Assembly (NCBI GenBank): GCA_022653695.1
Contig: JALCSW010000001.1
Coordinates: 301,034-365,033 of the forward strand
Source of the DNA: Bacilli bacterium
Lineage (GTDB): Bacteria > Bacillota_I > Bacilli_A > RFN20 > CAG-826
Length of the DNA: 64,000 bases
Direction of reading: 5' to 3'
This document shows, piece after piece, positions 58,227-62,487 of this stretch. A program made the position numbers and the translations under genes. The notes beneath the pieces are model-generated. The model was not told where the DNA came from, made no database searches, and saw only the letters and a list, made by a program, of their open reading frames with translations. Position 1 is the stretch's first letter, and every line of letters starts with the position of its first letter.

Positions 58227-59825
58227 TTAAGCAATCCTGCGGGTCGAATAGCGTTTCTTTTTGTGGACTTTCCCGCATATGGGGCAAACGATCTCGCCCT
58301 TTTCGTCAATCGGGGTGATGTTCCGAAAATGAAGCAAGGCTTCCGCTTTCCGTTTATAGAGCCACTCCTCATCCTTCGAGAAATCGCTCTTTCTGATTGG
58401 CTCGGGGCGCTTGCCGTCGATGGTGGTGTAAATATAGGGCGTCCCGTCATCGCACCTGGCGTCGACGATTCGGGTATGGCACCGATCGCACTCATCGTAG
58501 CCTTCCTTGTCGTTATGGGTGAGGCTGCCTTCGCAAAAGGGGCAATCCTTCCGTTCGGGGTCGCAATAGATCATGGCGCGCAGAAGAACTTGCTGCAAGC
58601 GGCGGAAGGACTCAACGTTCTCAGGGGAAAGAAAGATGGCTTTGGGGTTCCCGATTTCCTTTTCGTAAGGAGTGCAGGGGATGACCTCGTCAAACGAAGC
58701 GGAAACACCCGGCGAGGCCAACGGATCGGTTAGTTCGAACCCCACCTCCGGAACGAGAAGGATAGTCCTCTCCTTCTTTTTGCGGACGCGAAGGAAAACC
58801 CCTTTGCCCCGTTCGTCGATAAGGCGAGCCGTCCAGCCTTTGAACGCCATGACGATATCGAGGCCCTCGGTCTTGATCGGGGCCGAAAGGCTGGTCGCGA
58901 AACTGAAGCTCTGCAACGCGAAAACCAGCAGATACTCCACGTATTCGTAATATGTTAGACGGAGGGCGCCAAGGTCAACGGGAACGGCCCTTTCATCCTT
59001 GCCGTGACCTTTTTCAAGCATCCATTTCTCAAGACGATAAACTTGCCGGTAGTCCTTTTGCATAAGGAAGATATTCGTCTTCCGCAACGGGAGTTTCCTG
59101 TTTCTGACTTTGTTGAGGCGATAAACCGGCTTATGAAGGCGTGGGACGATAACGGCCGAAATTGCTTTCATCTTCTCGTAGATTCGCTTCGCGGAGGCAT
59201 AGTATTTGTCGAAATAGCGCACATACCCCATGTGAAGTTTGCCGATCGAAAGAAAGTAGTTGAGATGGTTGACCCGTTCGAGCAAATTGAATTCGATCGT
59301 CTCGTTGGCGTACACCAAATCCCTCAATAGGGAAACGCCGTTTCGAGCGAACGAGAGAATCGAATCAACGAGATTGCAAAAAACGAGATTCTCGTAAATC
59401 GCGTAATCGTCCAAATAGACGCGGGTGAGGAGTTTCTCGGGTTTCAGACCCTTCGCGGTAATGTCGTTGACATTCTCCGTGTGGGCGCCCAAATGCTGAA
59501 TGGTCGCCTGGTTGATGATGCGGACGTTCTCGACGGGAAGGACCTCATCGGCGTCGGTCAGATTGATAATGGGTTTGGCGAAGATCCGCTTCAAGGCCGG
59601 CAAGGCGGCCTCGATTCGGTCGCAGGTCTCCTCCATGGTGAAGAAATCCAAGTCCGGCTCGATTGAAAAAAGAGGCAAATCGTGAACCGAATGATAATTG
59701 AAATCCTTTACGGTCAAAGAGGCGTGTTTGGCGCTGAAAGAGGCGATGGGGCCAAGGACCGACTCCAATCGTCGGTATTCCTTTTGGTGGGGTTGATAGG
59801 CGACTTTCGGCATATCAGTCCTCAT
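58227..59825 (-). CDS. Zinc-ribbon partner protein of McrB-like ATPase (possibly DUF2357-related), unknown function
   Basis: 532 aa; YENLVFCNLVDSILSFARNGVSLLRDL; C-terminal CPFC...CDRC and CPIC zinc-ribbon motifs; 11-bp overlap with the upstream AAA gene. No recognisable PD-(D/E)xK motif. Confidence 0.65.
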   Translation of the reverse strand: MRTDMPKVAYQPHQKEYRRLESVLGPIASFSAKHASLTVKDFNYHSVHDLPLFSIEPDLDFFTMEETCDRIEAALPALKRIFAKPIINLTDADEVLPVENVRIINQATIQHLGAHTENVNDITAKGLKPEKLLTRVYLDDYAIYENLVFCNLVDSILSFARNGVSLLRDLVYANETIEFNLLERVNHLNYFLSIGKLHMGYVRYFDKYYASAKRIYEKMKAISAVIVPRLHKPVYRLNKVRNRKLPLRKTNIFLMQKDYRQVYRLEKWMLEKGHGKDERAVPVDLGALRLTYYEYVEYLLVFALQSFSFATSLSAPIKTEGLDIVMAFKGWTARLIDERGKGVFLRVRKKKERTILLVPEVGFELTDPLASPGVSASFDEVIPCTPYEKEIGNPKAIFLSPENVESFRRLQQVLLRAMIYCDPERKDCPFCEGSLTHNDKEGYDECDRCHTRIVDARCDDGTPYIYTTIDGKRPEPIRKSDFSKDEEWLYKRKAEALLHFRNITPIDEKGEIVCPICGKVHKKKRYSTRRIA

Positions 59826-62487
59826 TCAGTTTGCCGATGAAATCCGCGCATCGGGCCAAACCCAAATCGGCGAACTGACGAACCAGTTCCTCTTTGTCGT
59901 CAATGGTCTTCACCTCAAGCTTAGCCACGACCTTACTGAGCAAAATCGTCTCGACGGCTTGGTCTTGGACGTTCCTTCCGGGGAAACACTCTTCATAAAT
60001 ATTCACGAAATCCTCGATTTGACGAAGGATGCGGTTGCCAAACGAGATGTTGAAAGGCGACAGCAACCCCTCGACGTTCTTGATGAGTTCGTTGCCTTCG
60101 GCGTCGAAAGTGCCTTTCGCCTTGGCGCTCTCATAAAGCGAAAGAAGGGTCTGGGCTGAGTAGAATTGCTGAGGGATGGGGTTGCCATAATCGCGGACTT
60201 TCGGGGCCCGCTTATTGAAATTCATGGTATGGGCGCGATCGTAAACCTTGTCGGAGATAACGAAGGTGGACTCATCGCGGTTGGCCGTTCCGACGAACCA
60301 TACGTTCGACGGCACTTTAAGAACGCTGCCGTCCTTAAGGGCCTTGTATTCGCGCCAAAGGCCGCCATCCTTTGCCCGCAGGTTGATATTAAGAAGCTTC
60401 AGCTCGCGCTTATCGGGTTCGTTCTCCATAAGGGAAAGGAAGTCCGAGAAATAATACTCGATGCGCGAAAGGTTCATCTCGTCGAGAACGATGAACGTCG
60501 GGATTTCCTTGTTGAGGTTGGCCGCGTAAAGGGCTTGGGTGAATTTCTTCGGGGTGAATTTCTCCGAGAACTCGTTGTAATAGCCGAGCAATTCGTTTTT
60601 GTCCTTCCATGAGGACTCGACTTCGATAAGGTCGCATTGGGCGGCGATGGCTTCCGAGAAAATCTTCGGCAAGCTGGTTTTCCCAGTGCCTGACATCCCT
60701 TGAAGGATGCTAAGGCGACAGGCGCCCAAACCCGCGACGAAAGTCGCCATATCCTCATAACTATAGGAAAGGTGAAGACGGCTGTCCTTGGCGTAAGTGA
60801 CCACGAATTTGACGAGACCGCTTAATGAAGGGGCCACCGCCGCGATTGCCTTCCGTTTGGCCAAATCCGCCGCAAATTCGGCTTCCTTTGCGTCGATTTG
60901 AGAAAACGCGGGGCAAGGATCGAAGTGGCCCTCGGCCGTTTCGTCCTCCTCGCCGATAAGCCCCGTTCCCCCCGTACCGCCGCCCCCGGCGAGGTTTGCG
61001 GCTTCCACCGAAAGGTTGCCCCTTTCCCCGTCAAGGGCTTTGCGGATAATCATCACGGCCACGATTACTACATCAACCAACAAACAATAGAAAGCGTCGC
61101 TATGGATGGAATAAGTGTAATCCTTGGTGTAAGCGGGAAAGTAATAGCGGATGACCTCAAGGGTGCTTTCCTCGGTTATTTGGGTGGCGATCGTGAAGTA
61201 AATGCCGGCCACCCCGAAAATGAAAATGAAGAACACATTGACATACGTCACGGCCTTGGCAAGGGCTGGAAAATGCTTGTAACGGGAGAAAAAGCCCGAT
61301 AAAGCGAGAACGAGGCCAATCCCCGAGCAGATGACCATAAGCATGATCCCAAAGGCCAAAACCTGATAACCCGATCCCAAATTGGGGTAATCCTGCAGAA
61401 GTTTAAGGCCCGTCAGCGTCACGTCTTCGCTATAGGCCGTCGAATCGAACTTGACGTCGATGATATTGAAGAAAAGGGAGACGACCGTCACGGCAGTGAC
61501 GAGCAACAGATAGACAAGCGGCTCGATGTCGGTGAAACGGATGTGGCCTTTCCTAGGGGCCTCCACTATCCCGTTGGCCACGTCAAACTGGCCTTTGAGA
61601 ATGGAGAAAGGAAGGGTTAACGCGCAGAAGATGACGAAAGGGATAAAGGAAATCGATTCGCTATAGAACCCCTGAAGGGAATAGGCGAACTGGATGACGT
61701 ACCCCAGCATGAAGAACTCAAACGAAACGGCGACCTCGAGCCACATCAGTTTCCTCGCCATGAGAACGAAACGTTTCTTGTCGCTCCAGAAATAGGAAAG
61801 CGAGGATATGAAGTACAAGAAGAGAATGACGAAGAGGGCGATGTTGATGAGACAGTAAATGGAATCCTCCAAGTAGGCTCTCTCGGAGATGAGGACCTGA
61901 CCTAAAACGCAAACGTGATCAACCGAAGTGGAACCAACCGCGTAAACCGGAACGAACAGGAGGCAAAGAAGCAAACCCAGGAGCCCAATGGCGACCGTGA
62001 CGAGAATGCCAACGGCCGCCCGTTTGGATTCGGGTTTGACAGGCGCGTTCTCAGCCTTGGTTTTCGTTAAAGCCTTGGCACGGACGGAAAGGGCAAACCC
62101 AATGGTCGCGATGACCATTGACAAAAGAATGGGAACGAACAATCCGACCCCAACGGAATGGTAGGCGATCTGAAAACCGAAAAACGCCACCCCGAAAACA
62201 AGGAAATAAACGGCGGAGAAGAAATTGCCGGACGCTTTGTTGCGAATCACCTCAAGGGCGGAAAGGACGAAACCGACGAGACCGACGAAGAAGCCGAACT
62301 TGAGGCAAAGGGCGTAAACGGTCGAGGTTGTGGCTCCCCCTTCTCGAGCTAGCGACCAAATCGAGTAGCCCGCAAGGCCGTTAGACAAGGGCAAAAGAAT
62401 GGCGGAAAGATCCAACGCCAAAGCCAAAACGAAGAGAGCCAAAACGATTGCTCTATAGATACGCGCGTGCTTAAGATTCTTTTCCAT
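59815..62487 (-). CDS. Membrane-embedded McrB/MoxR-type AAA+ ATPase
   Basis: N-terminal half with many TM helices; C-terminal AAA: LQGMSGTGKTSLPKIFSEAIAA, FIVLDEMNLSRIEYYFSDFLSLMEN, NVWFVGTANRDESTFVISDKVYDRAHTMNFNKRAP. Start MEKNLKH. Confidence 0.85.
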   Translation of the reverse strand: MEKNLKHARIYRAIVLALFVLALALDLSAILLPLSNGLAGYSIWSLAREGGATTSTVYALCLKFGFFVGLVGFVLSALEVIRNKASGNFFSAVYFLVFGVAFFGFQIAYHSVGVGLFVPILLSMVIATIGFALSVRAKALTKTKAENAPVKPESKRAAVGILVTVAIGLLGLLLCLLFVPVYAVGSTSVDHVCVLGQVLISERAYLEDSIYCLINIALFVILFLYFISSLSYFWSDKKRFVLMARKLMWLEVAVSFEFFMLGYVIQFAYSLQGFYSESISFIPFVIFCALTLPFSILKGQFDVANGIVEAPRKGHIRFTDIEPLVYLLLVTAVTVVSLFFNIIDVKFDSTAYSEDVTLTGLKLLQDYPNLGSGYQVLAFGIMLMVICSGIGLVLALSGFFSRYKHFPALAKAVTYVNVFFIFIFGVAGIYFTIATQITEESTLEVIRYYFPAYTKDYTYSIHSDAFYCLLVDVVIVAVMIIRKALDGERGNLSVEAANLAGGGGTGGTGLIGEEDETAEGHFDPCPAFSQIDAKEAEFAADLAKRKAIAAVAPSLSGLVKFVVTYAKDSRLHLSYSYEDMATFVAGLGACRLSILQGMSGTGKTSLPKIFSEAIAAQCDLIEVESSWKDKNELLGYYNEFSEKFTPKKFTQALYAANLNKEIPTFIVLDEMNLSRIEYYFSDFLSLMENEPDKRELKLLNINLRAKDGGLWREYKALKDGSVLKVPSNVWFVGTANRDESTFVISDKVYDRAHTMNFNKRAPKVRDYGNPIPQQFYSAQTLLSLYESAKAKGTFDAEGNELIKNVEGLLSPFNISFGNRILRQIEDFVNIYEECFPGRNVQDQAVETILLSKVVAKLEVKTIDDKEELVRQFADLGLARCADFIGKLNED

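Follow-up and report, generated by a model that had tools for sequence, protein, structure and literature searches.

What might an McrB-type NTPase do when it is embedded in the membrane and its partner carries no nuclease motif? This question is raised by two genes in a 64,000-nucleotide stretch of a Bacilli bacterium genome (contig JALCSW010000001.1, positions 301,034 to 365,033; hereafter the window). The two genes lie where an earlier note on this DNA had placed them, both on the minus strand. Gene A (P0001; 59815..62487) encodes an 890-aa McrB-like NTPase with 12 transmembrane (TM) helices, as judged from the ORF, TM prediction, AlphaFold2 modelling and homologue alignment. It is followed by gene C (P0002; 58227..59825), whose ORF and profile comparisons identify a 532-aa partner of the CnuC/McrC type. 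The two genes overlap by 11 bp. The start of gene A was set at the ATG at position 62487 (MEKN...), which agrees with the starts of close homologues; the ORF itself could open as early as 62574. The pair is flanked upstream by a divergent ArsR-permease pair and downstream by a convergent TetR gene, both named by sequence reading.

The multi-TM region claimed for the N-terminal half of gene A was readily confirmed. The membrane module occupies residues 8–485 (61033..62466, minus strand) and contains 12 hydrophobic segments spanning residues 14 to 481. Among 24 homologues, 12 TM helices precede the Walker A motif in 19, 11 in four and eight in one. Lysine and arginine residues number 28 across the seven predicted cytosolic loops versus six across the six external loops, and this positive-inside pattern places both ends of the module in the cytosol (N-in/C-in). 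The AlphaFold2 model of gene A (mean pLDDT 80) recovered the same helices and, in agreement with the alignment, a short disordered linker following them. In addition, beta strands were modelled in the external loops at residues 180–194 and 341–359. These beta-hairpin-like loops belong to units 2 and 3 of what are possibly three 4-TM units; profile matches between the units, partly in-register and with E values from 1e-4 to 1e-2, are suggestive of a three-repeat origin. The 8-TM version is found in a MAG labelled Oscillospiraceae (L079:7432–11479) and is consistent with the loss or gain of one 4-TM unit. Profile matches of gene A to the PDB sequences of BILF1 and a Kv channel were rejected as artefacts of TM composition.

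The membrane module was not found separately from this NTPase in 100 genomes. In three genomes (L035/L074, L066 and L109) two ORFs take the place of the single NTPase gene, whether through assembly error, decay or a natural split; in L074 and L066 the break falls between the membrane module and the NTPase, and the L074 linker holds a zinc-ribbon-like CxxC stretch. Mean pairwise identity within the family is 0.32 for the TM module versus 0.69 for the AAA+ domain. The faster divergence of the TM part would suit either a sensor or effector exposed to shifting pressures or a region that is just weakly constrained.

The second half of gene A is, as the earlier note had read it, an McrB/MoxR-like AAA+ module, and its active site is complete. 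Profiles, Foldseek and alignment delimit a McrB/MoxR/dynein-type domain at residues 526–887 (59827..60912, minus strand), and Foldseek assigned the C-terminal 360 residues to the dynein/MoxR/McrB-type AAA+ fold, with dynein, MCM, NorQ, CbbQ and RavA as the nearest structures. The Walker A motif GMSGTGKT (residues 597–604; 60676..60699, minus strand) is invariant in all 24 homologues, as are the other catalytic residues tested; conserved positions of the family include the extended Walker A GMSGTGKTS, the Walker B motif LDEMN, GTANRDES, R751 and R819. The NxD(E) signature NRDE (residues 736–739; 60271..60282, minus strand) is present in all homologues as GTANRDES or a near variant. The NxD form is the defining mark of the CoCoNuT/CoCoPALM branch of McrBC (PMC11090510).

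In phylogenetic analysis the 12-TM NTPases formed one clade (support 100/99), distant from canonical McrB, which joined CnuB-type NTPases encoded on plasmids (97/97). The alternative grouping of the 12-TM and CoCoPALM NTPases was not rejected (AU p 0.166), and the CnuB grouping is thus not decisive. A first tree, in which the 12-TM clade was sister to CoCoPALM, was abandoned, as the clade moved once the CnuB-type rows were added.

Whether the product of gene C is related to McrC was a matter that the earlier note had left for checking. It is, by way of CnuC-type proteins. Three regions were distinguished, all on the minus strand: a DUF2357 (McrC N-domain) region at residues 65–276 (58998..59633), recognized from PF09823 matches, plasmid annotations and hhalign; an alpha/beta middle domain devoid of a catalytic motif at residues 285–422 (58560..58973), delimited by the structure model, hhalign and alignment; and C-terminal zinc ribbons (58260..58553), C428/C431/C446/C449 and C458/C514/C517/H521, identified by domain search and alignment. 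The seven cysteines of the ribbons are invariant in 28 of 28 sequences and H521 is retained in 25, whereas no PD-(D/E)xK pattern is conserved within residues 285–422 of the same 28 proteins. Both the zinc ribbons and the apparent lack of a nuclease motif, as first described, therefore hold for the family.

PF09823 (DUF2357) was matched by six of the 28 gene C members, with only that of L079 above the gathering score and the copy in the window itself below detection; partial matches to gene C on plasmids are annotated as DUF2357. In profile–profile comparisons, gene C was aligned by hhalign to the McrC N-domain of CoCoPALM (E 3.5e-22) over the DUF2357 part only, and to four plasmid CnuC-type proteins over 428 columns, zinc ribbons included (E 2.8e-28). 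The four plasmid proteins are called CoCoNuT CnuC-like by gene order, being encoded downstream of an NxD NTPase. The plasmid CoCoNuT-like clusters (L146–L149) come from Nostoc, Polaromonas, Pseudanabaena and Deinococcus, and two of the plasmids are predicted to be conjugative. In the alignment, the middle domain of gene C falls where CnuC carries its inactivated nuclease fold. A direct profile match between gene C and canonical McrC was not obtained, and the McrC kinship of gene C therefore rests on the DUF2357 matches and on the CnuC and CoCoPALM intermediates. A Foldseek search of the PDB with the gene C model (pLDDT 73, built from seven sequences), in which residues 14–83 contain helices, returned nothing; a weak resemblance of the zinc ribbon to eL43 in the PDB (E 0.009) was set aside.

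The pair occurs at ∼38 other loci, nearly all in Bacilli/Mollicutes-type bacteria. A genome scan yielded 34 loci, 33 of which represent the 12-TM family and one (L080) the CoCoPALM type; the 33 come, with few exceptions, from Acholeplasmataceae, Anaeroplasma and related Bacilli MAGs. Genes A and C are adjacent wherever a contig holds both (intergenic distance −35 to +13 bp, measured for 20 pairs), and their evolutionary distances are strongly correlated (r = 0.955, Mantel p 0.0005). Since full-length homologues at 32–94% identity maintain this constant pairing, the association is beyond chance. Neither a TM-free N-terminal half, nor a pair confined to one genome, nor a housekeeping partner, any of which would have spoken against the earlier description, was encountered.

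The pair is nevertheless sporadic. Across 397 genomes of the class, ∼22 carry a full-length partner and ∼100 a CoCoPALM-type partner. Within the genus of the window only three of 37 genomes contain the pair, their copies fall in different clades, and the copy of one congener (G014) is less similar to that of the window (36% identity) than is a copy from another family (46%), suggesting transfer or repeated loss. Viral contigs yielded no copy, and the plasmid set yielded only the partial DUF2357 matches, none of them full-length. An empty-site comparison within the genus was dropped, the flanking TetR gene being too poorly conserved in relatives that do not have the pair.

Enrichment of the pair near defence genes was among the checks that the earlier note had proposed. 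At the 45 loci sampled, some of them from the same genome, there was neither a neighbour conserved beyond close relatives nor a recurrent nuclease. Single copies of the pair lie within two genes of BREX BrxL, two DRT3 reverse transcriptases, AbiEi/AbiEii, Fic or DUF262-like genes, where the Fic and DUF262 labels and the assignment of genes to loci depend in part on motifs and visual inspection. Enrichment looked positive at first; however, when genes further out at the same loci served as control, 88 families were hit near the pair and 68 far from it, so that defence-family hits were about equally common. Since the distal control gave comparable matches, enrichment is unproven. The distal genes include PglX, and some of the distal matches are parts of the same islands. 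The neighbourhood evidence for a defence role may thus be called suggestive, not clearly above the local control.

Taken together, these results lead us to place the pair in the NxD branch of McrBC-like systems, as a variant that consists of two genes, is embedded in the membrane and has no nuclease. Its likeliest role, held with about even confidence, is that of a conflict system, for example in anti-phage defence, with its output through the membrane module. In the mechanism that we propose, the NTPase subunits would assemble into a ring at the cytosolic side of the membrane, where the 12-TM modules would anchor it. In McrBC, the hexameric NTPase is activated when it is bound by McrC through the DUF2357 domain (PMC11090510 and references therein); by the same logic, gene C should activate gene A, its DUF2357 domain binding the ring and stimulating hydrolysis. 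The dead nuclease-like core and the zinc ribbons of gene C might recognize a ligand, which may be foreign nucleic acid or a signal linked to the ribosome. Gene C lacks nuclease residues and the pair has no accompanying nuclease; the output is therefore most plausibly exerted via the 12-TM module, the units of which, rearranged by NTP hydrolysis, could alter the membrane in the manner of abortive infection or relay an envelope signal. Membrane damage, sensing and assembly are all compatible outputs, between which sequence cannot decide.

The main rival to a conflict role is an envelope-assembly motor, in which, as in CoCoPALM, the NTPase ring and the DUF2357 partner would supply the force to export, assemble or extract surface proteins, while the 12-TM module would serve as a membrane platform. 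It owes this standing to the CoCoPALM relatives: at the loci examined, these sit with SipW-type signal peptidases (profile-confirmed in three) and exported YAWFT-type proteins rather than with defence genes. CoCoPALM, which is likewise membrane-anchored, is thereby tied to export and assembly, and this weighs against the defence reading, as do the near-equal neighbourhood counts and the lack of copies in viral contigs and of full-length copies in the plasmid set. At one locus the two systems meet: in L055 (106–10499) the 12-TM pair lies directly upstream of a CoCoPALM-type set on the same strand, and one apparent operon comprises the pair, two exported YAWFT-like proteins, a SipW-like signal peptidase, a multi-TM NxD NTPase and a zinc-ribbon DUF2357-like protein, bridging both system types. 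Furthermore, a CoCoPALM-type partner is present in 14 of the 22 pair-bearing genomes versus 86 of the 375 that do not carry the pair (p 1e-4, uncorrected for phylogeny). However, a signal peptidase adjoins the pair at only one of ∼40 pair loci, there is no conserved substrate gene around the sampled pair loci, and five pair-bearing genomes of one family (f27) gave no CoCoPALM match. On balance we regard the envelope motor as unlikely, albeit deserving serious attention. As side observations, the genome of the window has a CoCoPALM-type locus on another contig (L037, G000:C3, about 70 kb), and at two CoCoPALM loci (L041:7210–13932 and L042:3270–10265) the McrC-like domain is found inside giant proteins of 2240 and 2331 aa.

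The Foldseek ranking of the NTPase, with NorQ, CbbQ and RavA among its nearest folds, could also be taken to indicate a chaperone of the MoxR type that serves a membrane or metal protein in the way of NorQ/NorD, the zinc-ribbon partner being its adaptor. This is improbable, as by sequence the NTPase is akin to the McrB-type NxD NTPases, gene C has a DUF2357 region and no VWA domain, and no conserved client gene occurs near the pair. Ordinary Type IV restriction, with a nuclease that is provided in trans or concealed within the middle domain of gene C, agrees with the McrC-family membership of gene C and the position of that domain at the CnuC nuclease fold, but is very improbable given the absence of a conserved D...(D/E)xK pattern from 28 sequences and of a recurrent nuclease nearby, and a 12-TM anchor that would be unusual for DNA translocation.

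How does the pair compare with known systems? Like McrBC of E. coli K-12, it couples an AAA+ NTPase to a DUF2357 partner encoded in the adjacent gene. However, E. coli McrB is soluble and has an NxxD motif, whereas gene A is a membrane protein with NxD; McrC has a PD-(D/E)xK nuclease, for which gene C conserves no motif, and PF10117, used as a test for the McrC nuclease, had no match in the genome of the window. In PADLOC, the NTPase part of gene A, and no other part, matches the phage-defence candidate PDC-M26A (4e-50), as do CoCoPALM NTPases, and there is no match for the partner. A literature search turned up nothing on PDC-M26.

The resemblance to CoCoNuT (CnuB/CnuC), especially Type II, is closer (PMC11090510). 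Both have an NxD McrB-type NTPase, a partner in which DUF2357 is combined with a catalytically inactive middle domain and with CPxC zinc ribbons at the C-terminus, and genes that often overlap; in Type II, CnuC carries an inactivated nuclease and the CPxC motifs are down to two (PMC11090510), which is the layout of gene C. Unlike CoCoNuT, the pair has a 12-TM module instead of coiled coils (judged from the AlphaFold2 model and the homologue alignment), and is accompanied by neither a HEPN or other effector nuclease nor a helicase, with no active nuclease in gene C either. The model of gene C has helices in place of the N-terminal Ig-like beta-sandwich of Types I, II and III-B/C. According to the CoCoNuT census, a coiled-coil McrBC system whose McrC nuclease is absent or inactive is in every case encoded alongside a different nuclease (PMC11090510). 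The 12-TM family breaks this pattern, and its output is therefore likely to be something other than the cutting of nucleic acids.

With CoCoPALM, which is named yet not analysed in PMC11090510, the pair shares a membrane-anchored NxD NTPase and a nuclease-free DUF2357 partner, and it occurs in the same bacterial groups, often in the same genome. The CoCoPALM NTPase, however, has one FtsB-like TM helix and a coiled coil where the pair has 12 TM helices, and its partner is coiled-coil-tailed and accompanied by a signal peptidase and exported proteins, whereas gene C ends in zinc ribbons and has no such companions. The architecture that the earlier note had taken for a departure from McrB and McrC is real; in CoCoPALM it already has a named relative. 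Literature searches brought up no account of an McrB that spans the membrane many times and has a partner with a dead nuclease; such proteins may sit unremarked in the supplementary tables of PMC11090510.

The pair lacks some defining features of each of McrBC, CoCoNuT and CoCoPALM, and we regard it as a new architectural variant of a recognised, little-studied branch, not as a categorically new kind of system. Where its relatives have a coiled-coil or FtsB-like part, the pair has a 12-TM module; it looks as though an established antiviral machine has been redirected to work at the membrane of the cell. Rather more tentatively, we suggest that the pair is a new immune or stress system of the NxD McrBC-like kind: a 12-TM machine fused to the ring would replace the nuclease and convert CnuC-type recognition into mechanical action on the membrane. 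Being composed of just two genes, it makes the role of membrane-bound McrBC relatives directly testable in a laboratory host, and it stands between CoCoNuT, with its predicted RNA targeting, and CoCoPALM, with its ties to the membrane and export.
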